This document shows, one piece after another, positions 37,739 to 64,000 of a stretch of DNA of 64,000 nucleotides. The notes under the pieces are model-generated. The model worked only from the letters and a program-made list of their open reading frames with translations. It searched no databases and was not told the origin of the DNA. The DNA is from Mycolicibacterium fluoranthenivorans (GTDB taxonomy: Bacteria > Actinomycetota > Actinomycetes > Mycobacteriales > Mycobacteriaceae). Both the position numbers and the translations under genes were made by a program. Location: positions 930,001 to 994,000 of the forward strand of contig NZ_JAANOW010000002.1 of NCBI RefSeq assembly GCF_011758805.1. The letters run 5' to 3'. Within the stretch, counting starts at the first letter, position 1. Each line of letters opens with the position of its first letter.

Positions 37739-37754
37739 CAGTCAAGCATGACCG
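37739..37754. promoter_or_regulatory. TetR operator, copy upstream of the tetR gene
   Basis: CAGTCA-AGCA-TGACCG repeats the core of the palindrome at 38402-38427 (CAGTCA-N4-TGACTG). It lies just upstream of a -10-like TAGGCT (37762-37767), which ends 6 bases before the ATG of the regulator. Autorepression is inferred. Confidence 0.6.
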
Positions 37755-37773
37755 CAATGAGTAGGCTGCTGCC

Positions 37774-38397
37774 ATGGATGAAGTGCCCCGTGCGGAACGC
37801 AGGCCTCATGTCGTGCGGCGTGCCGACAGCCGGGCCGTCATCCTCGATGCGGCCGTGCGGGCGTTGGTCGAGTACGGATACGGCGGAGCGACGACCGTGG
37901 TGATCCAGCGGCTTGCGGGTGTCTCCCGGGGGCGGTTGTTGCACTATTTCCCATCCCGCGAGGAGCTACTGGTTGCCGCCGCGCAGCATCTGGCCGTCGA
38001 GCGCATCTCCGAGATGGAACGGTGGTTCGACGCCGCGCCCGAGCACTCGGTCGCGAGTCCGCAGCGGATCGACTACGCAGTCGTGTTGTTGTGGCGGACA
38101 TTTCAGCAACCCTATTTCTGGGCGGCGATGGAACTCTGGCTGGCCGCGCGCACAGACCCCACACTGCGGGCGGAGCTGGCCGCATCCGAGCGGCGACTGG
38201 GGCGCGCGATCGAGCACGTCATCGCGACGATGTTCGGCCCGGTGCACAGCAGTCATGCAGGGTTCGCCGACCTCCGCGAGCTGCTGTTCACCAGCATGCG
38301 CGGGGTGGCGCTCACCTATGCGATCGACGACCGCGACGCCGATGCGGATGTGCACCTCGCGCTGTGGCAGAAGCTGGCCCGGGGGGTGCTGACCTAA
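37774..38397 (+). CDS. TetR-family transcriptional regulator
   Basis: The 207-residue protein has an N-terminal helix-turn-helix (VILDAAVRALVEYGYGGATTVVIQRLAGVSRGRLLHYFPSREELL, about 20-65) and a helical ligand domain with many aromatic residues (VVLLWRTFQQPYFWAAMELWL). It precedes an acyl-CoA dehydrogenase gene by 38 bp. The same palindrome occurs before both genes, so it most likely represses itself and the dehydrogenase and is released by an acyl-CoA or acid. Confidence 0.92.
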   Translation: MDEVPRAERRPHVVRRADSRAVILDAAVRALVEYGYGGATTVVIQRLAGVSRGRLLHYFPSREELLVAAAQHLAVERISEMERWFDAAPEHSVASPQRIDYAVVLLWRTFQQPYFWAAMELWLAARTDPTLRAELAASERRLGRAIEHVIATMFGPVHSSHAGFADLRELLFTSMRGVALTYAIDDRDADADVHLALWQKLARGVLT

Positions 38398-38401
38398 GTC
38401 C

Positions 38402-38427
38402 ATTACCAGTCAATGCTGACTGCTAAT
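38402..38427. promoter_or_regulatory. TetR operator between tetR and acyl-CoA dehydrogenase
   Basis: ATTACCAGTCA (38402-38412) and TGACTGCTAAT (38417-38427) form an 11-bp inverted repeat with one mismatch and a 4-bp centre. It lies 8 bp before the GTG of the dehydrogenase gene. Confidence 0.75.
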
Positions 38428-38435
38428 GTGGGCTC

Positions 38436-39665
38436 GTGACCGCTTCACCTCCCCGTACTCAGGACCGGATGACCCACGATCTCTGGTTGCCCGACGAGAT
38501 CGTCTCGTTGCGCGCCGAGGCGCGGGACGCTGTGCAACGCAGCGTCGCCCCTTACGCGCGCGAGATCGGGCAGCGCGAGGAATCCGCAGACAGCTTCCCG
38601 TGGGTGGCGTTCCGCGGCCTCGCCGACGAGGGCATGTTCGCGGTCCCGTTCGGGGCCGAGTTCGGCCGGGGCTTGAACCATCCGATGCTCGGCACCTGCA
38701 CGGTCGCCGAGGAGATCGCCTACCATTCGTCCTCGCTGGCCGGTGTGTACGACGGGCAGTGCATTCTGGTTCCGCAGACGCTGACGTTCGCCACGGATGA
38801 GCTGCGGGCCCGGCTCATTCCGGAGCTGGTGAGCGGCCGGGTGGCCTTCGCCTTCGCCACCACGGAGCCGGACACCAGTTCCGACCTCACCGCGGTGCGG
38901 CTGCAGACGGTCGCCGAGGAAACGGCGGACGGGTTCGTGGTGAACGGCCGAAAGCGCTGGATCACCAACAGCGTGGCGGCCGGCTGGGTGTCGGTGCTGG
39001 TGCGCGCCGGTGCGCACGGTGACCGGGCAACCATGCTGTTGGTCGACCTCACGTCGCCGGGCGTACGGATCGGAACTCCCGATCTGAAAATGGGTCATCG
39101 CGGACAGATCACCGCGGATATCGAGTTCACCGATGTGCAGGTACCCCGGGAAAACCTGCTGGGTGCGCACGGCGGCGGGATGAGTGTGGCGCTCTCGGCC
39201 CTGGTGCGCGGGCGCATCGGCATCGGCGCCGCCGGAGTCGGTGTCGCACAGGCGGCGCTGGATCTGGCAGTGGAGCGGTTGCGAACGCGCGAGGTGTTCG
39301 GCGCCCCGCTGGGAGCGATGCAACATTGGCAGTTCGTCATGGCGCAACGCGCCACCGAGATCGAGTGTGCACGCACGCTCTATCAGAAGGCGGCCACTCT
39401 GGTGGATCGCGGTGACCGCACCGCCGAACCGGAGGCGGCGATGGCCAAGGCTTACGGCACCAGGCTGGCCAACGATCTCGTCCGCGAGGCGATCCAGATC
39501 TACGGGGCGCTGGGCTTCGCTCGCCAGGTCGGGGAGACGGGTGAATCCGTGCGACTGGAGGAGATGTATCGCGACGCCAAGATCCTGGAGATCTTCGAAG
39601 GTGCCAACGAACTGCAGCAGTGGATCATCGCACGACGTCTCATCGGTCGCGATGTGACCGGATAG
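38436..39665 (+). CDS. Acyl-CoA dehydrogenase
   Basis: The 409-residue protein has the family layout: helical N-domain, FAFATTEPDTSSDL and KRWITNS FAD-contact strands, and a C-terminal helical domain with RDAKILEIFEGANELQ, where the Glu of FEGANE is the usual catalytic base position. It oxidises an acyl-CoA to the 2-enoyl-CoA, passing electrons to ETF. It is preceded by the TetR operator. An in-frame ATG at 38469 is an alternative start. It is the first of the acyl-CoA enzymes around the mce operon. Confidence 0.93.
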   Translation: MTASPPRTQDRMTHDLWLPDEIVSLRAEARDAVQRSVAPYAREIGQREESADSFPWVAFRGLADEGMFAVPFGAEFGRGLNHPMLGTCTVAEEIAYHSSSLAGVYDGQCILVPQTLTFATDELRARLIPELVSGRVAFAFATTEPDTSSDLTAVRLQTVAEETADGFVVNGRKRWITNSVAAGWVSVLVRAGAHGDRATMLLVDLTSPGVRIGTPDLKMGHRGQITADIEFTDVQVPRENLLGAHGGGMSVALSALVRGRIGIGAAGVGVAQAALDLAVERLRTREVFGAPLGAMQHWQFVMAQRATEIECARTLYQKAATLVDRGDRTAEPEAAMAKAYGTRLANDLVREAIQIYGALGFARQVGETGESVRLEEMYRDAKILEIFEGANELQQWIIARRLIGRDVTG

Positions 39666-39701
39666 GTCGGCGGTGGGGTACCCGGCCCTCTCGCCCGGCG
39701 C

Positions 39702-39717
39702 TCTAATCTATATTAAA
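39702..39717. promoter_or_regulatory. Copy of the shared 16-bp element before the MaoC gene
   Basis: TCTAATCTATATTAAA matches the element at 62074-62089 at 13 of 16 positions. It covers a -10-like TATATT (39709-39714) upstream of the ATG at 39750, as a repressor site would. Confidence 0.5.
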
Positions 39718-39749
39718 ATCTTGTGCCGCGGCCGGAGAGAAGGTACCCG

Positions 39750-40757
39750 ATGAACAACGATGTGCAAGCCCAGGTGTCGGGTGGGCCGTTCTTCGATGAT
39801 CTGCGGGTAGGACAGGTTTTCGACAGTGCCCCGCGGATGACGCTGACCGAAGGGGCGGCCGCGCTGCACCAGGCTGTCCTGGGTGACCGGATGCGGCTGT
39901 CACTCGACACGACACTGGCCACCGCGGTGACGGGAAGTGCACGCCCGCTTGCGCATCCGTGCCTGGTCACCGATATCGCGATCGGACAGAGCACGTTGGC
40001 GACCCAGCGTGTGAAAGCCAATCTCTTCTATCGTGGCCTGGCCTTTCATCGCTTTGTCGAGCTGGGGGATTCGCTGTCCACCCGCACCGAAGTCGTCGGG
40101 ATGAAGCAGAACTCCGTACGGGAGGGGCGTGCGCCGACCGGCCTGGTGGCGCTGCGGATGACGACAGTCGACCAGCGCGACCGCCTCGTCCTCGATTTCC
40201 ACCGGTGCGCGATGCTGCCCCTGTCGCCGGGTGTCGTCGAGACGGGCCGGGCTGACGACTTGTCATCGATCGGCGTCGATGAGGTGGTCACAGACCCGGC
40301 ACGCGACTGGGACGCAGAGGCGTTCCGGTCGCGAGTTCCCGGGCCGCACTTCACTGTCGACCTGGCGGGCGTGCGGATGCGCAGCACCGGTGACGTGGTG
40401 AGCAGTGCGCCGGAACTGGCCAGGTTGAGTCTGAACATTGCTGCCACTCACCATGATTGGCGAAGTGGTGGCCAGCGGCTGGTATACGGCGGCCACACCA
40501 TCGGAATCGCGATGGCGCAGGCGACGCGACTGCTGCCCAATGTGGCGAGCATCTTGAGTTGGGCTTCCTGCGATCACACCGGTCCGGTCCATGAAGGCGA
40601 CACTTTGTACAGTGACCTCCACGTCGAGGACGCCGTCGCGCTGCCGGATGGGCGTGGGGGGCGACTGAATCTCCGGTCGCAGGTCTATGCCGTCGGCGCC
40701 GGCGAGGAAACCGATCGCCAGGTGCTCGACTGGCGCTTCACCGTACTGATGTTCTGA
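39750..40757 (+). CDS. MaoC-like double-hotdog acyl-CoA hydratase/dehydratase
   Basis: The 335-residue protein has two hotdog halves. The first opens with GPFFDDLRVGQVFDSAPRMTLTE, and the second includes ATHHDWRSGGQRLVYGGHTIGIAMAQATRLLP, a hydratase-2-like stretch. It most resembles mesaconyl/itaconyl-CoA hydratase-like proteins. It probably hydrates an enoyl-CoA made by the adjacent dehydrogenase. The start at 39750 has GAGAAGG upstream. Confidence 0.85.
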   Translation: MNNDVQAQVSGGPFFDDLRVGQVFDSAPRMTLTEGAAALHQAVLGDRMRLSLDTTLATAVTGSARPLAHPCLVTDIAIGQSTLATQRVKANLFYRGLAFHRFVELGDSLSTRTEVVGMKQNSVREGRAPTGLVALRMTTVDQRDRLVLDFHRCAMLPLSPGVVETGRADDLSSIGVDEVVTDPARDWDAEAFRSRVPGPHFTVDLAGVRMRSTGDVVSSAPELARLSLNIAATHHDWRSGGQRLVYGGHTIGIAMAQATRLLPNVASILSWASCDHTGPVHEGDTLYSDLHVEDAVALPDGRGGRLNLRSQVYAVGAGEETDRQVLDWRFTVLMF

Positions 40758-40784
40758 CTTTCGCCCCCGACCGTGCGGTGACAC

Positions 40785-41243
40785 TCAGGGGCGAGGCTTC
40801 GCGACCAGCGACTGCCCGAGCTGCTCGACCAGGAGTCCGACGTCCCAGTAGTCGTGATGGCTGGTCAACTTTCCCTCCTGGTCGAACCGGCAGGTGGCGA
40901 TACCGGTGACCGAGAAGTGGCGGCCGGCCGCGTCGACGCGGCCGCCGCTGGGGAGCAGGAGGGGGCCGTTGATCGAGCCGCTCCACGTCCACTCGTAGTA
41001 GGCGCGGTCGTCCTGCACGGCGGGATGGGAGAACACGATCAGCGAATCAGGCGAGAATCTGAGCATCCACCGGTGAAAGCGCCGAATTTCCTCCCGGCCC
41101 ACATAGGTTCCGCCCATCGCCACATCCGCGTACGTGCCGCCCTCGGCAAAGTACGTGCAAAGCAAATTGGGATCGTCGGTCCACGCTCGACCGTAGGCCT
41201 CGGCGAAATCGTCGGCGGCGGGATGGGGAGTGGTGTTGACCAT
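40785..41243 (-). CDS. NTF2/SnoaL-like fold protein
   Basis: The 152-residue single-domain protein has the NTF2-like pattern (ADDFAEAYGRAWTDDPNLLCTYFAEGGTYAD, later GREEIRRFHRWM and HHDYWDVG). The fold serves isomerases, epoxide hydrolases, dehydratases and oxygenase beta subunits; no specific activity is evident. It points away from the mce operon, and its promoter shares the 425-bp region with it. Confidence 0.8.
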   Translation of the reverse strand: MVNTTPHPAADDFAEAYGRAWTDDPNLLCTYFAEGGTYADVAMGGTYVGREEIRRFHRWMLRFSPDSLIVFSHPAVQDDRAYYEWTWSGSINGPLLLPSGGRVDAAGRHFSVTGIATCRFDQEGKLTSHHDYWDVGLLVEQLGQSLVAKPRP

Positions 41244-41668
41244 CGAAGAAATTTATCACTGATTCAAAAAATGTGGGAGTCGTTTGGCGGCTTTCATCTC
41301 GGATGCGATCGCGGTCGGCGTCGTTCTGTGGATGGCGCTGGCGCCGTGGCGGCTCGGGAATCAATTTAGTGCTGTTAACCAGTGATACCGCCGAGGCTGG
41401 GTAGCCAGATCTCTGACGATTGCGTCAAAACGGGGTCAGCCTGCGCGGATGGCCGGGCCGTGAAAATCGGACTGTGTGCGCCCCTCGTTCAGACTTGACG
41501 TTTTTAGTCTAAGTTTGATTCTATCCGTGAGCCGCGTCACTCGATGGCTATCGATGTGACCCACGGCCGGAGGGCGAAGGAGATGCGCGCTGTGCTTGCT
41601 TCAGCGAACTGCCGGCCGGGGTCGAGCGGGCGCGGCGTACCCGTGACCGTCAGTTCAGACGGGAACTT
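41244..41668. other. Divergent regulatory region between the NTF2-like gene and the mce operon
   Basis: No coding gene is supported. It holds a weak partial copy of the shared element (41252-41267, 11 of 16) near the NTF2-like start and AT-rich patches at 41350-41385. The likely mce promoter lies at 41495-41524. Confidence 0.5.
41495..41524 (+). promoter_or_regulatory. Likely mce promoter with overlapping shared element
   Basis: A -35 TTGACG (41495-41500), an 18-bp spacer and a -10-like TTCTAT (41519-41524). The 16-bp sequence at 41508-41523 matches the shared element at 12 positions and sits between the two hexamers. The leader to the yrbEA start would be about 140 nt. Confidence 0.5.
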
Positions 41669-42448
41669 GTGAGGAGCTTGGTGTTCAAGACCAGTACCGC
41701 GGCGAAACCTGTACGGGCCATCGGCGGATTCTTCGCCATGGCGTTGGATACGGCTGTCGCCATCTTCCGGCCGCCGTTCCCGTGGCGTGAATTCGTCCTC
41801 CAGTCATGGTTTGTCGCACGGGTGTCACTGTTGCCGACGCTGATGCTGTCGATCCCGTTCACCGTTCTGACGGTGTTCACCTTCAACGTGCTGTTGGCCG
41901 AATTCGGCGCAGCAGACTTCTCGGGTACCGGCGCAGCGCTGGGAGCGGTCACCCAGATCGGTCCGATCGTCACTGTGCTGGTCGTCGCCGGCGCCGGCGC
42001 CACGGCGATGTGCGCGGACCTCGGAGCACGCACCATCCGCGAGGAACTGGACGCCCAACGCGTGATGGGGATCGATCCGATCCGGGCCCTGGTGGTCCCA
42101 CGTGTGCTGGCCGCAACCGTGGTGGCGCTGCTGTTGTCCTCACTGGTCATTCTGGTCGGTCTCGCAGGCGGATTCGCCTTCTCCGTGTTCTTTCAGCACG
42201 TGACACCTGGTGCGTTCGTGGCCGGACTCACCCTGGTCACAGGTGTCGGGGACGTCGTCGTCTCCCTCGTCAAGGCCACGTTGTTCGGGATGACGGCCGG
42301 CTTGATCGCCTGCTACATGGGCACCACCGTCGGCGGCGGCCCGGCCGGTGTCGGCAATGCGGTCAACGAGACCGTGGTGTTCTCGTTCCTCGCGCTCTTC
42401 ATCATCAACATCTTCATGACCGCAGTGGGAATCAAGGTGAACCTGTGA
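41669..42448 (+). CDS. yrbEA: Mce transporter permease YrbE-A
   Basis: The 259-residue MlaE/YrbE permease has about five or six membrane helices. It has the conserved cytoplasmic EExD-like stretch IREELDAQRVMGIDPIRALVVPRVLA and the family C-terminus GGGPAGVGNAVNETVV. Two YrbE subunits form the membrane core of the Mce lipid importer, driven by an MceG ATPase encoded elsewhere. The GTG at 41669 is taken. A GTG at 41681 with GAGGAG just upstream is a close alternative. Confidence 0.93.
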   Translation: MRSLVFKTSTAAKPVRAIGGFFAMALDTAVAIFRPPFPWREFVLQSWFVARVSLLPTLMLSIPFTVLTVFTFNVLLAEFGAADFSGTGAALGAVTQIGPIVTVLVVAGAGATAMCADLGARTIREELDAQRVMGIDPIRALVVPRVLAATVVALLLSSLVILVGLAGGFAFSVFFQHVTPGAFVAGLTLVTGVGDVVVSLVKATLFGMTAGLIACYMGTTVGGGPAGVGNAVNETVVFSFLALFIINIFMTAVGIKVNL

Positions 42449-43302
42449 GCGTCAAAACCACTATCCGACAGCGTTTCCCGCGGCTGTCGCGGCAGTCGCG
42501 GGCATGGCACGCGAGCTGGACCAGGGTCGGGGAGCAGACCCAGTTCTACGGGCGCACGCTCGGCTCGGCGGTGGATGTGTTCGTGCATTACAAGACCGAA
42601 CTGGTCAGGTTGATCGCTCAGATGAGTCTGGGAACGGGCGCGCTCGCCGTCATCGGTGGCACGGTCGTCATCGTCGGTTTTCTCACCGTCTCGACCGGTG
42701 CGCTGGTTGCCGTGCAGGGCTACAACCAGTTCGCCCAGGTCGGTGTGGAGGCGTTGACGGGTTTCGCCTCAGCGTATTTCAACGTGCGACTCATCGCGCC
42801 GCTGACGGCGGCCATCGCGATGGCCGCCACCATCGGTGCCGGCTCGACTGCGCAACTCGGTGCCATGCGCATCAACGAGGAGATCGACGCCTTGGAGGTG
42901 ATGGGGGTTCGTTCGCTGGCCTATCTGGCCACGACGCGCGTGCTCGCCGGTGTCGTTGTGGTGATACCGCTCTACTGCGTCGCGGTGATCATGTCCTTCC
43001 TGGCCGCCCGTGTCGGTACCACCGTGATATACGGCCAGTCCACCGGCGTCTACGACCACTACTTCCGCACCTTCCTCATTCCCACCGACCTGATCTGGTC
43101 GTTCGTCCAAGCCGTGGTCACCGCCGTCGTCATCATGCTCGTCCACACGTACTACGGTTTCACCGCTTCCGGGGGCCCCGCCGGGGTGGGTGAAGCGGTC
43201 GGTCGGGCCACGCGGACCTCACTGGTCGTCGCCGTATTCGTCACCCTGTTGGTCACGCTGTCCATCTATGGGCAGTCCGGCAACTTCAACCTGGCGGGCT
43301 GA
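42445..43302 (+). CDS. yrbEB: Mce transporter permease YrbE-B
   Basis: The 285-residue second YrbE permease has the family motif INEEIDALEVMGVRSLAYLATTRVLAG and the GGPAGVGEAVGRATRTS end. Its N-terminal 60 residues are basic and cytoplasmic. The GTG start overlaps the yrbEA stop (GTGA), so the two subunits are made in step. Confidence 0.94.
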   Translation: MSVKTTIRQRFPRLSRQSRAWHASWTRVGEQTQFYGRTLGSAVDVFVHYKTELVRLIAQMSLGTGALAVIGGTVVIVGFLTVSTGALVAVQGYNQFAQVGVEALTGFASAYFNVRLIAPLTAAIAMAATIGAGSTAQLGAMRINEEIDALEVMGVRSLAYLATTRVLAGVVVVIPLYCVAVIMSFLAARVGTTVIYGQSTGVYDHYFRTFLIPTDLIWSFVQAVVTAVVIMLVHTYYGFTASGGPAGVGEAVGRATRTSLVVAVFVTLLVTLSIYGQSGNFNLAG

Positions 43303-43306
43303 GCAG

Positions 43307-44704
43307 ATGGCGCGTCGAGCAGGCGAACCTCGGATCCACCCCGATTGGTGGACAGCGATTCTCATCGTGTTCACCGTCGGATGCATCGCCCTCACCTGGG
43401 CGCTGTTCAACGGCTCGTTCCGGCAGTATGTTCCGGTCACCCTCACCTCCGATCGCGCCGGCCTGGTGATGGAGGTCGGCGCGAAAGTCAAGATGCGCGG
43501 CGTGCAGGTGGGGCGTGTCGGGTCGATCGCCGGGGGGCGAGATCCGGTGAGTCTGCGACTGGAGCTGGACCCTGACAAGGTCCGCTATGTGCCCTCCAAC
43601 GTGGTGGCGCGGATCGCGTCGACCACGGTCTTCGGGGCCAAGTATGTCGACTTGATCTACCCCGAGGACCCGTCGGGTAAAGCGCTGGCGGCCGGTGCGG
43701 TGCTGCAGTCCCAGAACGTGAGCACCGAGGTGAACACCGTGTTCCAGGACCTCGTCGGCGTCATCAAGAAGATCGATCCCGCGAAGCTGAATTCGGTGCT
43801 CTCGGCGGTTGCCGAGGGTGTGCGTGGTCAGGGTCCGCGGATGGGCGAGGCCACGACGTCGGCCAATGAAGTGCTGACCGCCCTGAACGCGCGGTCGGAG
43901 ACCATCGGGCAGGACTGGCGCGCGTTCAGAGATTTCAACGACACCTATGCGGCCGCGGCACCGGACCTCATCCGGATCCTCGACGCTGCCGGCACCACCA
44001 GCACCACGGTGGCGTCCCAGGCGCACCAACTGGATTCGTTGTTGGTCAACGTCATCGGGTTCTCCCGGAGCGGCACCCAACTTCTCGGTCCGAACAAGGA
44101 CAACCTCGTCGATGCGATCAACGTCCTGCGTCCCACCACGGGTCTGTTCAACAAGTACAACCCCGAGTTGACGTGTCTGTTCCTCGGCGGAAAGAACGCG
44201 ATCGATTTCGGCCAGGCGGACTACACCGGTGGCGCCAACGGCAAGTCGCTGATCGTCGACGCCGCGCTGCTCCTCGGTGATGATCCCTACCGATATCCCG
44301 ACAACCTCCCGATCAACGGGGCCAAGGGCGGCCCCGGGGGTAAACCGGGCTGTGGATCGTTGCCGGATGTGGCCAAGAACTGGCCGGTACGCACCCTCGT
44401 CACCAACACCGGGTTCGGTACTGGACTGGACAACCGACCCAATCCGGGAATCGGTTTCCCGGGGTGGGCCAACTTCTTCCCGGTGACCCGGGCCGTGCCG
44501 GAACCTCCGAGCATCCGCTACCAGGGTGGTCCGGCCCCAGGTCCCACCTCGCCATGGGAACCGCCCTACGGCGCTGCGCAGTACGGACCCGGCGGGGCGC
44601 CGCTCTTCCCCGGAGTGCCACCCGCGCCGCCGGATGCCCAGGCGCCCATCCCTCCGGGGATCGGCGGCCCGGCGCCGGATCCGTCGACGCAGCCACCGGG
44701 ATGA
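43307..44704 (+). CDS. mceA: Mce family protein, MceA position
   Basis: The 465-residue protein has one N-terminal membrane helix (about 15-35) and then an MCE/MlaD domain (about 40-120: LVMEVGAKVKMRGVQVGRVGSI). A helical region (to about 300) and a Pro/Gly-rich tail follow. Six such proteins (A-F) form a hexameric tube that carries lipids across the periplasm to YrbE. The ATG is 4 bp after the yrbEB stop. Confidence 0.95.
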   Translation: MARRAGEPRIHPDWWTAILIVFTVGCIALTWALFNGSFRQYVPVTLTSDRAGLVMEVGAKVKMRGVQVGRVGSIAGGRDPVSLRLELDPDKVRYVPSNVVARIASTTVFGAKYVDLIYPEDPSGKALAAGAVLQSQNVSTEVNTVFQDLVGVIKKIDPAKLNSVLSAVAEGVRGQGPRMGEATTSANEVLTALNARSETIGQDWRAFRDFNDTYAAAAPDLIRILDAAGTTSTTVASQAHQLDSLLVNVIGFSRSGTQLLGPNKDNLVDAINVLRPTTGLFNKYNPELTCLFLGGKNAIDFGQADYTGGANGKSLIVDAALLLGDDPYRYPDNLPINGAKGGPGGKPGCGSLPDVAKNWPVRTLVTNTGFGTGLDNRPNPGIGFPGWANFFPVTRAVPEPPSIRYQGGPAPGPTSPWEPPYGAAQYGPGGAPLFPGVPPAPPDAQAPIPPGIGGPAPDPSTQPPG

Positions 44705-44753
44705 GCACAGCCATGACACGACTCCATCAGACGAACAGTGAGAGGCCGACGAC

Positions 44754-53057: not shown

Positions 53058-53073
53058 TTTAACCTAGATTAGA
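53058..53073. promoter_or_regulatory. Shared 16-bp element in the divergent SDR promoter
   Basis: TTTAACCTAGATTAGA contains 11 bases (TAACCTAGATT) identical to the element at 62074-62089. The core AACCTAGATT is a 10-bp near-palindrome. TAGATT inside it could be the -10 of the rightward gene. Confidence 0.65.
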
Positions 53074-53121
53074 AATATCGGCTAGATTTGTCTATGCCGG
53101 AGGTGTCGACGGGAGACGGGT

Positions 53122-56217: not shown

Positions 56218-57482
56218 CCTCTGTCATCGATCCCTCAGCGGACACCGGCAGCCGGTACGACCGGCTGATCCGGCCGGAGAAGGTGCACGGCACGCTGTAC
56301 ACCGATGCCTCGATCTACGCCGAAGAACTGGCCAAGATCTGGTACCGCACCTGGGTGTTCGTCGGCCACGAGAGTGAGGTCGCCCAGCCCAACGACTACG
56401 TGCGCAAGAAGCTCGGACCCCAGGACGTCATCATGACCAGGGACCGGGACGGCGAGGTGCACCTGCTGCTCAATCGGTGCGCTCATCGTGGCAACCAGGT
56501 GTGTGATGACGCCAAGGGCAACTCCAGCACCTTCCGTTGCCCGTACCACGGCTGGACCTTCCGAAATGACGGCGAGCTCATCGGATTTCCGTTCTTCAAG
56601 GGTTACGGCGACCGTAAGCTGGACCTCGCGATGGGGCGGGTACCGCGCGTGGACTCCTACGGCGGCTTCGTCTTCGGCAGCTTTGCACCCGACGGGCCGT
56701 CGCTGGTCGAGCATCTGGGTGCCGCCGCCGGCGAGATCGACCGGCTGACCCGGCTGTCGCCGGAGGGCCGGGTGGAACTCACCGCCGGCTGGCTTCAGCA
56801 CAAGGCGCAGGCCAACTGGAAGTTGCTGGCCGAGAACGAGACCGATGGCTACCACCCCCAGTTCGTGCACGGATCCATCTTCGGCGTCACCGGCAGCACC
56901 ATCGGCCCGCTCTACAGTGACTCCTCGACCGCGGTGACCCGAGACCTCGGCGGCGGACACAGCGAGAACGACCTGCGGCCGGAGTTCCGCAAGTACGCCG
57001 AGCCGATGCGCTGGTTCGGCACCACCGAATCACGGGTGCCCCACTACGTTGCCGCGATGCGGGCCAAGCATGGGGAGGCCGCCGAGCAGATCCTCATCGA
57101 AGGCGCGCCGCACGTGATGATCTTCCCGAACCTGTTCATCGCCGAAATTCAGGTCTTCAACATCCAGCCGGTCGCGGTGGACCAGTGCGTGCAGTACGCC
57201 ACCGCGGTCCAACTGGCCGGCGCGCCAGAACTGAATCGCCGCATGGTTTCTCAGTGCATCGGCTCGGTGGGACCGGCAGGCATGCTGCTCGCCGACGACA
57301 CCGAGATGTATGAGCGCAATCAGCAGGGCATCGCCGCCCTGACCCCGGAGTGGCTCGATGTGCGCCGGGGGATGAACCGCGAAACCGTCGACGAGAACGG
57401 ATTCAAGATCGGTACCAATACCGATGAGACGGGGATGCGCGGCTTCTGGTCCCACTACAAGACGCTGATGGAAAGGGACTGA
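56214..57482 (+). CDS. Rieske ring-hydroxylating oxygenase, alpha subunit
   Basis: The 422-residue protein has a Rieske [2Fe-2S] site C89-x-H91 and C109-x2-H112 (NRCAHRG, RCPYHGW). The mononuclear iron site follows in ENETDGYHPQFVH (D211 bridging, H214, H219). The late ADDTEMYERNQQG region resembles benzoate/anthranilate-type dioxygenases. Together with the beta subunit it would insert oxygen into an aromatic or alicyclic substrate. No reductase or ferredoxin gene is in the window. It overlaps the crotonase gene by 4 bp. Confidence 0.95.
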   Translation: MTSVIDPSADTGSRYDRLIRPEKVHGTLYTDASIYAEELAKIWYRTWVFVGHESEVAQPNDYVRKKLGPQDVIMTRDRDGEVHLLLNRCAHRGNQVCDDAKGNSSTFRCPYHGWTFRNDGELIGFPFFKGYGDRKLDLAMGRVPRVDSYGGFVFGSFAPDGPSLVEHLGAAAGEIDRLTRLSPEGRVELTAGWLQHKAQANWKLLAENETDGYHPQFVHGSIFGVTGSTIGPLYSDSSTAVTRDLGGGHSENDLRPEFRKYAEPMRWFGTTESRVPHYVAAMRAKHGEAAEQILIEGAPHVMIFPNLFIAEIQVFNIQPVAVDQCVQYATAVQLAGAPELNRRMVSQCIGSVGPAGMLLADDTEMYERNQQGIAALTPEWLDVRRGMNRETVDENGFKIGTNTDETGMRGFWSHYKTLMERD

Positions 57483-57487: not shown

Positions 57488-58021
57488 GTGACCACGTCAC
57501 TGCACGGCTCGGACGTGCTCGAGGCGGCGCCCGAGGAGTTCGATCGATTCGCCGTCGAACAGTTCCTCTACCGCGAGGCGCGCTACGCGGACGAGAACAA
57601 CTACGACGCGTGGGAGTCCCTCTGGACCGATGATGCGTTGTACTGGGTGCCTGCCGACTCAGGCGGATCCGACCCCACGCGTCAGATGTCGATCATCTAC
57701 GACAACCGCAGCCGAATCTCGACCAGGCTCAAACAAGTGCGTACCGGGCGCCGGTACGCGCAGGCTCCGCCGTCACATCTGCGACGGCTGATCTCCAACA
57801 TCGAATTCCTCGGTGGGCGACCGAATCCCGAAGGCTCCCTCGATCTTGAGGTCGGGGCGAACTTCCTTGTCGTCGAATCGCGCCCGCGCGGCAACCACAT
57901 CTGGGGCGGCCGGGTCACCTACCGTCTGCGCCTCGTCGATGGGCAGATGCGGCTGGCGTACAAGAAGGTGCAGCTGGTCGACGCCGACCAGCCGGTGCCG
58001 TCACTGAGCTTCCTCATCTAA
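57488..58021 (+). CDS. Ring-hydroxylating oxygenase, beta subunit
   Basis: The 177-residue NTF2-fold protein has the beta-subunit pattern (FAVEQFLYREARYADENNYDAWESLWTDDALYWVP, then YDNRSRISTRLKQVRTG and HLRRLISN). It holds the alpha-beta hexamer together and has no cofactor. The GTG start is 5 bp after the alpha stop. Confidence 0.94.
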   Translation: MTTSLHGSDVLEAAPEEFDRFAVEQFLYREARYADENNYDAWESLWTDDALYWVPADSGGSDPTRQMSIIYDNRSRISTRLKQVRTGRRYAQAPPSHLRRLISNIEFLGGRPNPEGSLDLEVGANFLVVESRPRGNHIWGGRVTYRLRLVDGQMRLAYKKVQLVDADQPVPSLSFLI

Positions 58022-58030: not shown

Positions 58031-58285
58031 ATGGGAATCCAGTTCGACGAGTCGGCACCGGTGACGATTCCGGGGGTGGGTGCCGTCATCGGCAGCGAGT
58101 TCGCCGAGGTCGCCGTGAGCATCGATGACCAGGCCAATTCGCCACGGCTGAAGTTGGTGGACCTGCGCACGGGCCGGGTGCGTTTCCTCGACGCACTCGA
58201 ACTCGAGACCATCGTGTGGTTACCCGACGAGCGGCTCAACAGCCTGCTCGACCCGTCGGCCGATCGCTGGCGGGGCGACAAATGA
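58031..58285 (+). CDS. Small protein of unknown function in the oxygenase operon
   Basis: The 84-residue protein (MGIQFDESAPVTIPGVGAVIG start, VDLRTGRVRFLDALELETIVWLPDERL later) is acidic and beta-rich. It contains no cysteine, so it is not a ferredoxin. It has an AAGGAG site and is joined by ATGA to the thiolase gene. Its constant position next to the oxygenase suggests an accessory or CoA-enzyme partner role, but I recognise no family. Confidence 0.82.
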   Translation: MGIQFDESAPVTIPGVGAVIGSEFAEVAVSIDDQANSPRLKLVDLRTGRVRFLDALELETIVWLPDERLNSLLDPSADRWRGDK

Positions 58286-59487
58286 GGCGCGCCGCCATCG
58301 TCGCGCCGCTGCGCACACCGGTGGGCACCTTCGGTGGCAGCCTGCGGCCGCTTCGGGCCGAAGACCTCGCGGCGCACGTCATCAAGTCCGTGGTCGCCCA
58401 GAGTGGTATCGATCCCGAGGTCATCGAAGACGTCGTCATGGCGCAGTCCTATGCCAACTCCGAGGCCCCGTGTATCGGTCGGTGGGCGGCCCTGCACGCC
58501 GGATTGCCGATCACCGTCTCCGGCCTGCAGATCGACCGTCGCTGTGGTGGTGGGCTGCAAGCCGTCATCACGGCAGCGATGACGGTGCAGACCGGTGCGG
58601 CCGATGTCGTCCTGGCCGGCGGTGTGGAGTCGATGAGCAATATCGAGCACTACACCACCACCGCCCGGTGGGGTTCGCGGTCCGGTAACCAGATGCTCTA
58701 CGACCGCCTGGACCGTGGGCGCGAATTGTCGCAGCCGGTATGGCGGTTCGGTCCCATCAGCGGAATGATCGAAACCGCGGAGAATCTCGCCTCCGATTAC
58801 GGTATCGACAGGTCGGCTGCGGACGAGTTCGCGGTGCGAAGCCATCGACGCGCCGTCGCGGCACAGGACAACGGCCTCTTCGACGACGAACTGGTCAGCG
58901 TGGAGGTGCCTCAGCGGCGCGGTGATCCGATCGTGGTGGTCGCCGATGAGGGCGTGCGGCCCGACACCACCATCGACACCCTGGCGCGACTGCGTACGGT
59001 CCAGCCGGGTGGCACCGTCACCGCGGGGAATGCCGCCCAACAGAACGATGCCGCCGCCGCGTGTCTCGTCGTGGCCGAGGATCGGCTGGAGTCGCTGGGC
59101 CTGGAACCGATCGGATTCCTGGAAGGCTGGGCCGCGGTCGGTTGCGAGCCCTCCCGGATGGGGATCGGGCCGGTCGGCGCGGTCGAGAAGCTTTTCAGCC
59201 GAACGGGTTTGACCTTTGATGACCTCGCGTTGATCGAGATCAACGAGGCCTTCGCCGTCCAGGTGCTGGCGGTGCTGTCCGGGTGGGGGCTCAAGCCGGC
59301 CGATGTCGAGGACCGATTGAACGTGAACGGTTCGGGCATCTCGCTCGGCCACCCGATCGGGGCGACCGGCGTGCGCATCCTGGCCACCATGCTTCACGAA
59401 CTTCGGCGCCGCGGTGGGGGGCTGGCCCTGGAGACGATGTGCATCGGCGGCGGGCAGGGGATCGCTGCCGTGTTCAGGGGGGCATAG
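58282..59487 (+). CDS. Acetyl-CoA acyltransferase (thiolase)
   Basis: The 401-residue protein has the complete thiolase active site: nucleophile C88 in DRRCGGGLQAV, GHPIGATG with the His, and the second Cys in MCIGGGQG, as well as NEAFAVQ. It can cleave 3-oxoacyl-CoA with CoA. It overlaps its neighbours on both sides, and the following gene starts in its stop codon. Confidence 0.95.
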   Translation: MRRAAIVAPLRTPVGTFGGSLRPLRAEDLAAHVIKSVVAQSGIDPEVIEDVVMAQSYANSEAPCIGRWAALHAGLPITVSGLQIDRRCGGGLQAVITAAMTVQTGAADVVLAGGVESMSNIEHYTTTARWGSRSGNQMLYDRLDRGRELSQPVWRFGPISGMIETAENLASDYGIDRSAADEFAVRSHRRAVAAQDNGLFDDELVSVEVPQRRGDPIVVVADEGVRPDTTIDTLARLRTVQPGGTVTAGNAAQQNDAAAACLVVAEDRLESLGLEPIGFLEGWAAVGCEPSRMGIGPVGAVEKLFSRTGLTFDDLALIEINEAFAVQVLAVLSGWGLKPADVEDRLNVNGSGISLGHPIGATGVRILATMLHELRRRGGGLALETMCIGGGQGIAAVFRGA

Positions 59488-60842
59488 TGACGTTCGGATT
59501 GCTGCGGTACGGCAGCTACCTGCCCCGTCATCGACTGAGTGCAGCCGATATCGGCCTGCGCAAGGGTGACCGGGTGGTCGCCTCGTACGACGAAGACTCG
59601 ACCACCATGGCCGTCAGCGCTGCCGGCCTGGTGGTGAAGCCAGGTGCGCACCCGGGTGCGCTCTACCTGGCCACCACCACGCCCGCCTACGCCGACAAGA
59701 CGAACGCGAGCGCGGTGCACGCGGCACTCGGTCTGCCCACCGAGGTGTTGGCCGCCGATCTGGGCGGTACGGCCCGCAGCGCCATCGCCGGATTGCTCGC
59801 CTGCGCGCGGGGTGGGGGACTGGTCATCGCCGCCGACGTGCGCGTCGGCAAACCGGGGTCGGCCGACGAGAAGACCGGCGGCGATGGCGCGGCGGCCCTC
59901 TGGTTCGGCGACGGCGACCCGATCGCCGAGATTCTCGCAGCCCGTTCGCAGACCGACGAGTTCCTGGACCGGTGGCGGGATCCGGCGTCCACCACCGGGT
60001 ACCAGTGGGAGGAACGGTTCGGGGCCGAGCGCTACAGCGCGTTGATCCGGTCGACCGCGCGCGAGGCGCTGGATGCGGCCGGCCTGGCCGATGCCGATCA
60101 CGTCGTCCTCGCCTGTCCGAACACGGCTGTGGTCAAGCGCGCCGCCACCTTGGTCAAAGGCCAGAAATCGGTCATCACCTCGCCCGTCGGGCACACCGGT
60201 GCCGCCGATCCGCTCATCGCCCTGGCCGGCGCCCTCGATACCGCCGAACCGGGCGAGACCATCCTGCTGCTGTCGGCCGTGGACGGCTGTGACGCCGTCG
60301 TCTTCCGCACCACTGCCGCGCTCACCGGGGCTCGTCAGCGCACAGCGCTCAGCGCGCAGCGCGGTGGCGGACTCCCGGTGCCGCACCTGACCTACCTGTC
60401 GTGGCGCGGACTCGTCGAACGGGAATCGCCGCGCAGGCCCGAACCCGATCGGGCTGCTGCGCCACCGGCCGCACGATCGCAGCGATGGAAGTTCGGATTC
60501 ACCGGATCACGCTGCACGCACTGCGGTTTCACCCATCTGCCGCCGACGCGCGTGTGCCGATCGTGCGCCGCGGTCGACGATATGGTCGACGTCGCGGCCG
60601 GGCAGTTGGCCGGTACGGTCGTCACCTACACGGTGGACAGGCTGGCGTTCTCGCCGTCGCCGCCGATGGTGCAGGCCGTGATCGACATCGACGGCGGCGG
60701 ACGGTGCACCCTGGAGGTGGCCGATGCCCGACCCTCGGAGTTGAACGTCGGCAGCCGGGTTCGGTTCTCCTTCCGGCGGCTGTTCACCGCCGGCGGTGTG
60801 CACGACTACTTCTGGAAGGCGGTGCAGGACAGTGCCGAGTAA
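59487..60842 (+). CDS. HMG-CoA-synthase-like protein fused to DUF35
   Basis: In this 451-residue protein, residues 1-310 follow the HMG-CoA synthase/KAS III fold (YGSYLPRHRL, DEDSTTMAVSAA with the acidic base, SPVGHTGAADPL with the His). The position of the catalytic Cys reads AADLGGTARS, so Asp (D91) replaces it. Residues 335-451 form a DUF35 zinc ribbon (CTHC, CRSC) and OB-fold. It resembles the thiolase/HMGCS/DUF35 assembly of archaea, here as a fusion between two thiolase genes. The GTG start shares one base with the previous stop. Confidence 0.9.
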   Translation: MTFGLLRYGSYLPRHRLSAADIGLRKGDRVVASYDEDSTTMAVSAAGLVVKPGAHPGALYLATTTPAYADKTNASAVHAALGLPTEVLAADLGGTARSAIAGLLACARGGGLVIAADVRVGKPGSADEKTGGDGAAALWFGDGDPIAEILAARSQTDEFLDRWRDPASTTGYQWEERFGAERYSALIRSTAREALDAAGLADADHVVLACPNTAVVKRAATLVKGQKSVITSPVGHTGAADPLIALAGALDTAEPGETILLLSAVDGCDAVVFRTTAALTGARQRTALSAQRGGGLPVPHLTYLSWRGLVERESPRRPEPDRAAAPPAARSQRWKFGFTGSRCTHCGFTHLPPTRVCRSCAAVDDMVDVAAGQLAGTVVTYTVDRLAFSPSPPMVQAVIDIDGGGRCTLEVADARPSELNVGSRVRFSFRRLFTAGGVHDYFWKAVQDSAE

Positions 60843-62034
60843 CGGAATCGCAGGCAAGGTCGCGGTCGTGTCCATGGGCTGCAGCAAGTTCGGCGAACGC
60901 TGGGACGCCTCCACCGATGACCTCATCCTCGAGGCCTACCAGGAATGCCTTGCCGGTGTGCCCCAGGTCGGTCGCGCGGATGTGGACGCCTACTGGCTCG
61001 GCACGTTGAGCTCGGGCCTGGGCGGTCTGACCCTGAGCCGCGCGATCGGTAGCGACGACAAACCGGTCACCCGTGTCGAGAACTTCTGTGCCACCGGTTC
61101 GGAGGCATTCCGCAATGCGTGCTACGCCGTCGCCGCGGGCGCCTACGACATCGTGATGGCAGTGGGTGTGGAGAAGCTCAAGGACTCGGGCTATTCGGGG
61201 CTGTTACGTCAGGACCCGCCGGGCGACGGTACCGCGCCGGAGATCTCGATGACCGCGCCGGCCGCTTTCTCGTTGCTCGATCCCGCCTACTGCGACCGTT
61301 TCGGCGTGCATCCCGACGAGATGCGGGCCGCGATGACACACGTCGCGTGGAAGAACCACGACAACGGCACGCGAAACCCGAAGGCGCAGTTCCGTTCCCC
61401 GGTGGCCCGCGAGACCATCGACGGTGCCCCGAAGGTGGCCGGCCGCCTCGGGGTGTTCGACTGCTCCGGTGTGTCCGACGGTGCGGCCTGCGCCCTGATC
61501 GTCTCCGCCGAGCGGGCACACGAGTTCACCGACACACCCATGTACGTCGAGGCGCTGTCGCTGATCGCGGGATCGACGCGTGGATCGATGGACTCGGCGT
61601 ATGACTACACGACATTTCCCGAGGTGGTGAAGGCGGCCAAAGATGCCTACGCCCAGGCGGGAATCGAGCGGCCGGCCGAGCAGCTGTCGCTGGCCGAGGT
61701 GCACGACTGCTTCACACCGACCGAGATCGTGTTGATGGAGGACCTGGGGTTCTCCGACACCGGGCAGGCCTGGAAGGACGTGCTGGCGGGCGAATTCGAC
61801 GCGGGCGGACGGCTGCCGGTCAATCCCGACGGCGGGTTGAAGTCGTTCGGTCACCCGGTGGGCGCCAGTGGATTGCGCATGCTCTACGAGGCGTGGCTGC
61901 AATTCCGTGGGCAAGCCGGCGAACGACAGCTGGCCGATCCGCACACCGCGCTGACGCACAATCTCGGTGGGCGGCCCGGTGGGTGCGTGTCGTTCGTATC
62001 GGTGGTGTCACGGGAGCCGCGCCGGCTCCAGTAG
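60832..62034 (+). CDS. SCP-x/lipid-transfer-type thiolase
   Basis: The 400-residue protein has a nucleophile region VENFCATGSEAF (C86), a full GHPVGASG loop and a final GGCVSF, so thiolytic activity is plausible. It belongs to the SCP2-thiolase group that often works with DUF35 proteins. The GTG at 60832 lies 11 bp inside the DUF35 fusion gene, consistent with a complex of the two products. Confidence 0.9.
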   Translation: MPSNGIAGKVAVVSMGCSKFGERWDASTDDLILEAYQECLAGVPQVGRADVDAYWLGTLSSGLGGLTLSRAIGSDDKPVTRVENFCATGSEAFRNACYAVAAGAYDIVMAVGVEKLKDSGYSGLLRQDPPGDGTAPEISMTAPAAFSLLDPAYCDRFGVHPDEMRAAMTHVAWKNHDNGTRNPKAQFRSPVARETIDGAPKVAGRLGVFDCSGVSDGAACALIVSAERAHEFTDTPMYVEALSLIAGSTRGSMDSAYDYTTFPEVVKAAKDAYAQAGIERPAEQLSLAEVHDCFTPTEIVLMEDLGFSDTGQAWKDVLAGEFDAGGRLPVNPDGGLKSFGHPVGASGLRMLYEAWLQFRGQAGERQLADPHTALTHNLGGRPGGCVSFVSVVSREPRRLQ

Positions 62035-62073
62035 GGGGCGGCGCGCTGCGACTGCCTTGACGCGAGACTTTTT

Positions 62074-62089
62074 TCTAACCTAGATTCAA
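62074..62089. promoter_or_regulatory. Shared 16-bp element before the MFE-2-type SDR
   Basis: TCTAACCTAGATTCAA overlaps a -10 TAGATT (62081-62086) that has a -35 TTGACG (62057-62062) 18 bp upstream. The predicted leader to the GTG at 62120 is about 27 nt and has a GGAGGAG ribosome site. It is the best-formed copy of the element in the window. Confidence 0.65.
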
Positions 62090-62119
62090 TCGCAAAGCAC
62101 AGTTAACGGAGGAGTTCAA

Positions 62120-62980
62120 GTGTCGGGTGTTCAAGACAAGGTTGTCGTTGTCACGGGTGCGGGAAACGGCTTGGGGCGCTCGTACGCCCGGTTCCTGGCG
62201 GCCAACGGCGCACTCGTCGTCGTCAATGACCTCGGTGGCGCTCGGGACGGCTCCGGCGCGGGAACCCAGGCCGCCGACACCGTGGTCGAGGAGATCCGCA
62301 GCGCCGGCGGAAAGGCAGTGGCGAGCTACGATTCCGTGGCCGATGAAAGTGGTGCGGCGGCGATCATCGACACCGCGCTCAACGAGTTCGGCGCGGTGCA
62401 CGGCGTGGTGAGCAACGCCGGCATCCTGCGCGATGGCGCCTTCCACAAGATGACGGCAGACAGCTGGGACGCCGTGCAGAAGGTGCACCTCTACGGTGGT
62501 TTCAACGTGATCCGTGCCGCGTGGCCGCACTTCCGCGAGCAGAAGTTCGGCCGGATCGTCGTCGCGACCTCCACCAGCGGCCTGTACGGCAACTTCGGCC
62601 AGGCGAACTACGCGGCCGCCAAGGCCGGTCTGGTCGGTCTGATCAACACGTTGGCGATCGAAGGCGCGAAGTACTCCATCACCGCGAACGCCATTGCGCC
62701 CATGGCGGCGACCCGGATGACTGCCGACATCGCCCCGCAGGAGTTGTTGGACAAGCTGAATCCCGAACTCGTCGCTCCGGCGGTCGGCTATCTGGTCTCT
62801 GCCGAGAACGAGGACACCGCATCGGTGTTCGTCGTCGGCGGAGGCCTGGTGCAGCGCGTGGCGCAGTTCCAGAACGACGGCGTCACCTTCACCGCCCAGC
62901 CCAGCCTGGCGGAGATCACGGCGAAGTGGTCGCAGATCAGCGACATGTCCGACGCCAAGCTCGGCAGCAACCCCGTCTGA
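62120..62980 (+). CDS. SDR-family hydroxyacyl-CoA dehydrogenase (MFE-2 type)
   Basis: The 286-residue protein has TGAGNGLGRSYARFLAANGALVVVNDLGG, the extended cofactor region typical of peroxisomal multifunctional enzyme 2 dehydrogenases. It also has SNAGILRDGAFHKM, the Ser in VATSTSG and YAAAKAG. It likely oxidises a 3-hydroxyacyl-CoA. A GGAGGAG site precedes the GTG. Confidence 0.94.
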   Translation: MSGVQDKVVVVTGAGNGLGRSYARFLAANGALVVVNDLGGARDGSGAGTQAADTVVEEIRSAGGKAVASYDSVADESGAAAIIDTALNEFGAVHGVVSNAGILRDGAFHKMTADSWDAVQKVHLYGGFNVIRAAWPHFREQKFGRIVVATSTSGLYGNFGQANYAAAKAGLVGLINTLAIEGAKYSITANAIAPMAATRMTADIAPQELLDKLNPELVAPAVGYLVSAENEDTASVFVVGGGLVQRVAQFQNDGVTFTAQPSLAEITAKWSQISDMSDAKLGSNPV

Positions 62981-62988
62981 GCGACACC

Positions 62989-64000
62989 ATGAGATCTGCG
63001 CCGGCGTACCGGGAGGGCGATCGCTCGGTGCCGCTCATCGACGATTCGGTGGGTGGGTTGCTCGCGGCGCGAGCCGCAGATCACCCGGACACCGAAGCCG
63101 TGATCGGCGTCCGGCACGGTACGGGTGATATCGAACGGCTCACGTACGCAGCCCTTTTCGGCGAAGCGTGTCGGGTGGCAGCGGCGCTGTCGACGTTGGT
63201 GGAGCCCGGCCAGTACGTCGCCTTGTGGGCCCCCAACCTCGTCGAGTGGACCGTGATCCAGTACGGCGCCGCACTGGCCGGGGCCGTACTGGTCGCACTC
63301 AACCCGGTGCTGCGCGACGACGAACTCGACTACGCGTTGCGGCACAGCCGTGCCCATGTGTTGCTGCACGCCGATGTCAGCCGCGGGTACGCGATGGGTG
63401 AAGTCGCAGAGCGCGTGTGCGCGGATATCCCTGGTCTGCGGCGAATCTCGCTGTCAGAACGTGAGGTGTGGCTGGCCCCGGCGGCAGCAGCCTCGGCACC
63501 CGAGATCAGTGCTGACTCGCCGGTCATGCTGCAGTACACCTCGGGTACCACCGGTCGCCCCAAGGGTGTGCTGTTGACCCACCGGGCCCTGGTCAACGTG
63601 GCCAAACTGACGATGGAAGCCACGGGGGCACCCCCCAAGGCGCGGTGTTTCAATCCGTTGCCGTTGTTCCACACCGCGGGGTGTGTCATCGCCACCCTGG
63701 GGCCGCTCTGGTTGGCGGGCACCTCGGTATTGTGCGAGCGTTTCGCCGCGGACGAGGCGCTGGAAGCGATACGCCGGGAGAACGTCTCGGTGCTGTTCTA
63801 CGTCCCGACGGTGCTGCACGCCCTGTTGCGGCGCCAGCGTGAGATCGATATGCCCGCAACGCAGTTGAGTGTCATCATGGGTGGGGCCTCGAATGTCGCC
63901 GCCGATCTGATCGACGGTGCGGCCTCGGTCTTCGGGGCGCACGTGTACAACCTGTTCGGCCAGACCGAGCTGGCGCCGGTGCTGTCGCTCACCCGTCCGG
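62989..64000 (+). CDS. AMP-dependent acyl-CoA synthetase/ligase (partial, runs off the window)
   Basis: The visible 337 residues are the N-terminal domain of the ANL superfamily. The P-loop YTSGTTGRPKGV is at about residue 185 and the later FGQTE motif at about 325. It would activate a carboxylic acid to its CoA thioester, the entry step for the surrounding pathway. It begins 8 bp after the SDR stop and is probably co-transcribed. The C-terminal domain lies outside the window. Confidence 0.93.
   Translation, partial: MRSAPAYREGDRSVPLIDDSVGGLLAARAADHPDTEAVIGVRHGTGDIERLTYAALFGEACRVAAALSTLVEPGQYVALWAPNLVEWTVIQYGAALAGAVLVALNPVLRDDELDYALRHSRAHVLLHADVSRGYAMGEVAERVCADIPGLRRISLSEREVWLAPAAAASAPEISADSPVMLQYTSGTTGRPKGVLLTHRALVNVAKLTMEATGAPPKARCFNPLPLFHTAGCVIATLGPLWLAGTSVLCERFAADEALEAIRRENVSVLFYVPTVLHALLRRQREIDMPATQLSVIMGGASNVAADLIDGAASVFGAHVYNLFGQTELAPVLSLTRP

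Follow-up and report, generated by a model that had tools for sequence, protein, structure and literature searches.

The question raised by this locus of Mycolicibacterium fluoranthenivorans is whether an mce operon and the Rieske oxygenase operon next to it form one catabolic system, as was claimed in the initial annotation. Both are located in a stretch of 64,000 nt, the window of this study (C2:930,001-994,000; the genome comprises 6.4 Mb in six contigs). Our analysis suggests that they probably do, though by a modest balance of the evidence: the window appears to contain the left half of a single cassette spanning about 60 kb (from 39.7 kb to about 99.6 kb in window numbering), in which the uptake of a hydrophobic ring acid, its activation with coenzyme A (CoA), its dioxygenation by the Rieske enzyme and its cleavage by a thiolase/pseudo-HMGCS/DUF35 set would be coregulated. 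The genes of import and catabolism look like one system by a shared regulatory motif and by the co-occurrence of mce operons with the Rieske gene, more than by their adjacency.

The Pfam and NCBIfam scans of open reading frames (ORFs) of the window confirmed all gene families named in the initial annotation, each in its place, from the TetR regulator to the HMGCS-DUF35 fusion, including the start of the AMP-ligase gene: two MlaE permeases, six MlaD/Mce proteins, three SDRs, three crotonases, two thiolases, and the alpha and beta subunits of the Rieske oxygenase, RieA and RieB (Table 1). The genes described there as one continuous block are thus all present, but the block is not uniformly oriented, as the SnoaL gene and the first SDR gene (SDRrev) are on the minus strand. 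SDRrev is reversed, divergently oriented relative to the Rieske operon, and lies between it and the mce operon, so that these two constitute separate transcription units.

The promoter region between SDRrev and the FabG-like SDR of the Rieske operon contains the predicted operator TTTAACCTAGATTAGAAAT, 47 bp ahead of the FabG-like SDR and 49 bp ahead of SDRrev. This site or its near copy is present in this promoter in all 24 mycobacterial sequences extracted (some loci being represented twice), and it diverges more in three sequences from other genera; where the FabG-like SDR is missing, the site would, judging from its position, stand before ECH1. The exact 19-mer with up to three mismatches has a sole match in the genome, the Rieske promoter (control 0), hence a degenerate pattern was needed. 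With at most two mismatches, the latter yields 13 matches in ten places, all of them within C2:969,700-1,029,628, that is, in one 60-kb stretch (39,700 to 99,628 in window numbering), with no match in the rest of the 6.4-Mb genome and none for the reversed pattern used as a control. Seven of these places are 10-151 bp ahead of a gene start (beyond the window, sites are found 10 bp before the third thiolase gene, Thl3, 11 bp before another acyl-CoA dehydrogenase gene, and 94 bp before an APH-like gene), while the other three are about 24 bp before a membrane-protein ORF (counted by hand), inside the longest reading frame of a P450, and at a place without an assigned gene.

As the pattern was composed after the sites, including the weak mce site, had been viewed, its specificity rests on the zero matches elsewhere, the zero control, and a matrix trained on ten Rieske-promoter sequences only. 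This matrix detects further sites along the cluster, and scores of at least 6 bits occur about once per Mb against its background, taken from simulated sequence rather than from the real genome. Hence, we infer that the sites are likely operators: a repressor, probably of the TetR type, would bind them before the operons of the cassette. The whole-genome scan with the pattern found no match in front of the TetR gene of the window itself.

The distribution of the motif bears upon an alternative that we consider unlikely, namely, that the mce operon, with an unrelated cargo, is a chance neighbour inserted between the SnoaL and SDRrev genes, the Rieske operon being an independent catabolic unit. 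It does not fit the confinement of the pattern to the 60-kb block, with one match preceding YrbEA, nor the observations made in other genomes. Among 148 genomes sampled from the genus, 18, including the one studied here, have a RieA orthologue (at least 82% identity, the next matches having 45% or less). YrbEA of one type of mce operons, type III (see below), is found at 80% identity or higher in ten of the 148 genomes, nine of them RieA-positive (hypergeometric P = 6e-9), and at 73% or higher in 14 genomes, ten of them RieA-positive (P = 3.5e-8). Among the ten type III promoters, clear sites are seen near RieA in G141, G039 and G068, and also in three of the six RieA-positive genomes where the type III operon is not found within 40 kb of RieA (above 7 bits in G027, G145 and G098). 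In general, seven of 11 mce promoters near RieA score at least 5 bits, compared to three of 27 other mce promoters (Fisher test, P = 0.002), or one of 24 when three close type I relatives are removed from the controls (P = 0.0003); two of the three control matches belong to such relatives, in G145, with RieA on another contig, and in G090. The p-values of co-occurrence and of the promoter comparison do not take into account the relatedness of the species.

The Rieske operon itself is stable. The gene order ECH2-ECH3-RieA-RieB-Thl1-HMGCS/DUF35-Thl2 is conserved in all 16 other mycobacterial genomes whose surroundings of RieA were compared (G008, a fragmented assembly, was excluded), and is not due to chance. 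A ligase gene is inserted between ECH3 and RieA in five of the 16 genomes, ECH1 is about 30 kb away in one, and the FabG-like SDR is absent from its place in seven. Of the 32 RieA loci from other actinobacteria, 27 have Thl1 nearby, 28 have HMGCS-DUF35, and 27 have Thl2. The mce operon is a far less regular companion. Any mce operon is found within 40 kb of RieA, as far as the contigs permit, in 11 of the 16 genomes, and none in G098, G012, G043, G027, nor on the short contig of G145; among 40 named mycobacterial RieA loci, some of them short, ten have mce genes in flanks of up to 10 kb. In Rhodococcus opacus PD630, the Rieske operon has no mce gene near it in the 41 kb examined. The proximity within 40 kb is seen in 11 of 15 genomes for RieA compared to 21 of 83 acyl-CoA dehydrogenase genes from the studied genome (P = 1.3e-4, the genomes being related and three of the 15 stretches being short on one side). 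This frequency and the presence of several non-orthologous mce types near RieA argue against a chance neighbour, although mce operons are often located near acyl-CoA dehydrogenase genes anyway, which, like the arrangement in G098, where SnoaL and SDRrev are directly adjacent with no mce operon between them, speaks in its favour. The latter arrangement would agree with the mce operon having been inserted between these genes in the lineage of the window.

Several observations, to which the limited similarity of Thl2 to IpfD discussed below should be added, weigh against one coregulated cassette, and the first three given here also speak for a chance neighbour. The mce type of the window adjoins the Rieske operon in two of the 16 other genomes (G109 and G121) and not in the other 14, so that nine genomes with an mce operon within 40 kb remain beyond these two; no mce gene is found in flanks of up to 10 kb around any of the 32 RieA loci from other actinobacteria; and within 20 kb the comparison with acyl-CoA dehydrogenase genes (five of 15 versus 13 of 83) is not significant (P = 0.07). 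The expectation that the mce and Rieske genes travel together was not borne out by this comparison, and adjacency alone was rejected as a proof of linkage. The YrbEA site of the window is the weakest among the matrix-scored sites used, the best sites of the mce promoters in G109 and G121 have four mismatches (the RieA-linked promoters of G018 and G121 score 1.5 and 3.9 bits), and the mce promoters of G100 and of the Mycobacterium avium plasmid pP7a have no site (-4 and -5 bits). Type III promoters lack the site in G018 and G012, where RieA is present (as well as in the RieA-negative G119), and the type III operon of the studied genome, on C5, scores 2.1 bits. RieA of G145 is on a short contig, so linkage of the type III operon could exist there beyond its end, and G090 has a type I operon with a similar site yet neither RieA nor Thl2, which speaks against an exclusive coupling. 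Thus, of the single route from import to beta-oxidation proposed initially, the unity of the system is retained, due to the shared motif and the co-occurrence of type III operons, and the fixed mce-Rieske unit is not.

The mce operon of the window encodes two MlaE permeases together with six MlaD proteins, the composition of an Mce lipid importer, and the closest solved chains are those of the 8fed Mce complex and Mce4A (7ai2). Likewise, the Mce4 and Mce1 importers of mycobacteria have two YrbE permeases and MceA-F, while the operon of the window differs from them in being linked to the Rieske regulon through an operator-like site (this comparison relies on gene content and the closest solved chains). 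Many of the mce operons found in mycobacteria have no assigned cargo. In the studied genome, 62 MlaD matches correspond to ten full mce operons, including that of the window, and two single matches. The operator-like motif and the co-occurrence connect mce operons with a defined oxygenase pathway, so that induction of a single regulon offers a way to look for the cargo.

By identity of YrbEB, the mce operons near RieA fall into at least three non-orthologous types. Type I comprises the operon of the window and those of G109 and G121, with G018 at 71%; type II comprises G045 and G132, about 55% identical to the operon of the window, and G031, assigned via MceD-F as its YrbE genes are outside the stretch; type III comprises G030, G100, G141, G039, G068 and the M. 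avium plasmid (34-42%). The copy of the block on plasmid pP7a has, along with its type III mce operon, its own ABC ATPase near an SCP2 gene (L149:32291-33361), so the whole importer may be mobile.

All eight residues of RieA examined, coordinating the Rieske cluster and the mononuclear iron, are kept in 75 of 75 homologues. A benzoate reading was rejected due to the weak score with the NCBIfam equivalog of benzoate 1,2-dioxygenase BenA (185 bits, the cut-off being 781). The closest characterised oxygenase encountered is IpfA/IpfB of ibuprofen-CoA degradation (RieA-IpfA, 42.6% over 418 amino acids; RieB-IpfB, 44.0% over 159 amino acids). In the plasmid pIBU218 of Rhizorhabdus wittichii MPO218, the ipf genes likewise form a cluster of Rieske alpha and beta subunits, a ligase, an SCP2-type thiolase and a DUF35 protein. 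A possible but doubtful alternative is a route of the ipf type (as described in the accessible parts of PMC9195938 and PMC11347016), in which an aryl-acyl-CoA is dioxygenated beside its side chain and then split by a thiolase pair into a catechol and an acyl-CoA, the catechol dioxygenases for ring cleavage being encoded elsewhere. The ligase, thiolase and DUF35 components needed for it are all there, one intradiol dioxygenase locus above the cut-off exists elsewhere in the genome, and an ibuprofen-removing strain of M. aubagnense is reported to have a 45% IpfA homologue (PMC11347016, accessible part). On the other hand, no extradiol or intradiol dioxygenase was found among regulon ORFs scanned with Pfam, small or unscanned ORFs remaining, whereas a gene annotated as bphC adjoins the ipf cluster and has no counterpart found in the block of the window. 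Thl2 is only distantly related to IpfD (29% over 217 amino acids, about half of the protein), as is the DUF35 domain to IpfE (28% over 74 amino acids), so they are not orthologues. A closer homologue of IpfD (40-44% in nine of nine loci) is encoded in another mycobacterial Rieske locus (L029 to L037), whose oxygenase is 42-45% identical to RieA. Moreover, DUF35 in ipf is a separate gene lacking the HMGCS domain, no mce or P450 genes are annotated in the 15 kb examined, and the ipf scheme, as far as it is given in the parts available, offers no role for the unusual crotonases.

Two solved complexes, the archaeal thiolase/HMGCS/DUF35 complex (6esq) and PhlACB (5m3k), contain chains matching Thl2 as well as chains matching HMGCS-DUF35. 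All three components are present in the window, with HMGCS and DUF35 in a single chain and in a catabolic setting, unlike both complexes. Cys86, His291, Cys293 and His341 of Thl2 are kept in 65 of 65 homologues, and each of the four zinc cysteines of DUF35 in 67 or 68 of 68. The position of the HMGCS nucleophile, assigned by eye from the motif, is occupied by Gly in the window, by Cys in 31 of 68 homologues and by other residues in 37, so the domain of the window lacks the nucleophilic Cys of a functional HMG-CoA synthase. In this respect the protein of the window and the 37 homologues resemble PhlA, which according to the available part of PMC6392133 has no nucleophilic Cys, acyl transfer using residues of PhlC only. 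The crotonases are not canonical enoyl-CoA hydratases either: ECH1 keeps one of the catalytic glutamates, and ECH2 and ECH3 keep none. The glutamate positions and residue roles are those that we take to hold for rat crotonase.

The thiolase residues also bear on a steroid or bile-acid branch, in which the DUF35/thiolase pair would be a side-chain aldolase of the Ltp2 or Sal type. The presence of a DUF35 partner, an SCP2 protein and an mce operon is compatible with it, and M. neoaurum, a sterol degrader (PMC10398937), carries the mce-Rieske block, the mce operon of strain ATCC 25795 being of type I. Nevertheless, Cys86 and the His and Cys of the HDCF motif are invariant among the Thl2 homologues, unlike the YDHF of Ltp2 and YDCY of Sal (given in the accessible part of PMC12329534), and the family scores are weak: as already stated in the initial annotation, the mycobacterial cholesterol set is not matched, as judged by four equivalogs, the scores of the proteins scanned being far below the cut-offs: 22 of 280 bits for KstR (the TetR protein of the window), no more than 183 of 400 for EchA19 and 60 of 450 for IpdE2, and 50 of 789 for ketosteroid dehydrogenase. 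RieA scores 32 of 600 bits with the sole sterol oxygenase model listed (KshA was not compared). This reading was rejected as very improbable.

For the coregulated cassette, the following order of steps may be proposed. The Mce ABC importer would take up a hydrophobic substrate, an alkyl group of which would be converted to a carboxylic acid by a P450 acting with an alcohol dehydrogenase and a benzaldehyde-dehydrogenase-like enzyme. AMP-ligases would then form the CoA thioester; shortening of the chain would fall to acyl-CoA dehydrogenases, MaoC, SDRs and thiolases, and the Rieske oxygenase might dihydroxylate the ring on the CoA thioester, by analogy with IpfAB and ibuprofenyl-CoA. A C-C bond would finally be cleaved by the predicted thiolase/pseudo-HMGCS/DUF35 complex, built like PhlACB and the archaeal one. 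A bolder proposal, improbable in our judgement, is that of an actinobacterial aerobic hybrid pathway not yet assigned, in which the CoA-bound ring is dearomatised by a Rieske dioxygenase and not by a Paa- or Box-type epoxidase, non-hydratase crotonases with the thiolase/pseudo-HMGCS/DUF35 set open and shorten it with no ring-cleavage dioxygenase, and exchangeable Mce importers are governed by one repressor.

The gene content is not undescribed, contrary to what was initially claimed. Sekizuka et al. (2014) reported the genomic island MmGI-1 of Mycobacterium massiliense JCM 15300, which contains an mce operon and was ascribed a role in extra lipid metabolism, its conservation extending to M. 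bolletii BD and M. avium 104 (PMC4263727, accessible part). A comparison of our annotation with its Table 1, made by eye and not by sequence alignment, shows a nearly identical order: reversed SDR, FabG-like SDR, three crotonases, Rieske alpha and beta subunits (the beta subunit being listed at only 68 amino acids), small ORF, thiolase, HMGCS, thiolase, SDR, two ligases, reversed hypothetical gene, MaoC, crotonase, acyl-CoA dehydrogenase, phytoene-dehydrogenase-like enzyme, CitE, small ORF, ligase, P450, SDR, aldehyde dehydrogenase, small ORF, reductase, CoA transferase, and reversed acyl-CoA dehydrogenase-thiolase-TetR. The block studied here additionally contains the APH-like gene, DUF7064/7065 and a second P450. 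According to the same table, the mce operon of MmGI-1 ends about 16 kb ahead of the reversed SDR, unlike the adjoining type I operon of the window; it may be of type III, judging by its best hits in M. avium, M. vulneris and others. In its accessible part, the description of MmGI-1 gives no operator or pathway, and the openly available literature yielded no paper assigning a pathway to the block (most subscription papers were outside the search). What is added here, compared to that part of the paper, is the predicted control sites and the tie to the importer.

The Rieske gene is found in Mycobacterium, Nocardia, Rhodococcus, Gordonia, Nocardioides and other genera, and also on the M. avium plasmid, so that a name would be given to a widespread pathway that has had no assignment. 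In combination with a competent-looking thiolase, the fused pseudo-HMGCS-DUF35 would add to a family of enzymes acting on C-C bonds that is useful in synthesis. The best matches of RieA of the window are proteins from Mycobacterium and Mycolicibacterium.

The block continues for about 35 kb past the end of the window. This continuation encodes further ligases, a metallo-hydrolase, the APH-like kinase, DUF7064/7065, MaoC, a SnoaL-crotonase fusion, acyl-CoA dehydrogenases, an FAD amine-oxidase-like enzyme, a CitE-like lyase, an SCP2 protein, a ligase, two P450s, an SDR of the coniferyl-alcohol-dehydrogenase type (scoring above the cut-off of that model), an aldehyde dehydrogenase (the nearest model is MdlD, the score being below its cut-off), a ferredoxin reductase, a CoA transferase, the third thiolase and a TetR regulator.

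Table 1. Genes and predicted regulatory sites of the window (coordinates in window numbering)
Feature	Position	Strand	Basis and remarks
TetR-family regulator	37774..38397	+	Pfam TetR_N 2.9e-11
Acyl-CoA dehydrogenase AcDH1	38436..39665	+	Pfam
Predicted operator site	39700..39719	.	31 bp upstream of MaoC1; matrix 15.8 bits
MaoC-like hydratase MaoC1	39750..40757	+	Pfam 1.7e-7
SnoaL/NTF2-like protein	40785..41243	-	Pfam
Operator-like site	41501..41518	-	151 bp upstream of YrbEA; 2 mismatches, 5.4 bits
Ten-gene mce operon, type I	41669..52204	+	Pfam MlaE, MlaD, Mce4_CUP1
YrbEA	41669..42448	+	
YrbEB	42445..43302	+	
MceA ORF	43190..44704	+	
MceB	44754..45782	+	
MceC	45767..47140	+	
MceD	47137..48420	+	
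MceE	ending 49556	+	
MceF	49557..51032	+	
Mas-like ORF	50996..51580	+	no Pfam hit; presumably Mas
Mas-like ORF	51620..52204	+	no Pfam hit; presumably Mas
SDRrev (SDR)	52210..53007	-	Pfam; divergent to Rieske operon
Predicted operator TTTAACCTAGATTAGAAAT	53056..53076	.	between SDRrev and FabG-like SDR
FabG-like SDR	53122..53868	+	NCBIfam NF004198 348.8 bits, cut-off 296
Crotonase ECH1	53865..54635	+	one of two hydratase glutamates replaced
Crotonase ECH2	54632..55435	+	catalytic glutamate absent, Asp invariant
Crotonase ECH3	55432..56217	+	catalytic glutamate absent, Asp invariant
Rieske dioxygenase alpha subunit RieA	56214..57482	+	Pfam
Ring-hydroxylating dioxygenase beta subunit RieB	57488..58021	+	Pfam 1.7e-22
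Conserved ORF, 83 amino acids	58028..58279	+	between RieB and Thl1; no Pfam family
Thiolase Thl1, acetyl-CoA acyltransferase type	58282..59487	+	NF004853 656.8 bits, cut-off 551
HMGCS-like domain fused to DUF35/ChsH2 zinc-ribbon OB domain	59487..60842	+	profile scans
SCP2-type thiolase Thl2	60832..62034	+	NF004810 611.6 bits, cut-off 403
Predicted operator site	62072..62089	-	31 bp upstream of SDR3; 20.9 bits
SDR3	62120..62980	+	Pfam
Acyl-CoA ligase Lig1	62977..64000, runs past window end	+	Pfam AMP-binding on L009:7977-9587

Some further observations concern relatives of these genes. The conserved ORF of 83 amino acids is also found in the copies of the block in R. opacus and M. avium. A plasmid of Variovorax sp. 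SRS16 (L146) encodes a betaproteobacterial version, whose RieA is 61% identical and is accompanied by a thiolase, crotonases, an FAD enzyme and a 2Fe-2S protein; three of the four zinc cysteines are absent from its HMGCS-DUF35. The Thl2 orthologue of G012 (C1:1362263-1363453) has one in-frame TGA, possibly reflecting a broken gene or an assembly error, and G140 has two Thl2 homologues at 62% (C1:3598378 and C1:331311) and no RieA orthologue, perhaps representing a sister pathway. Finally, a small ORF rich in lysine and alanine is located at 36705-36917 of the window; we presume, without a scan, a likeness to stress proteins of the CsbD kind.

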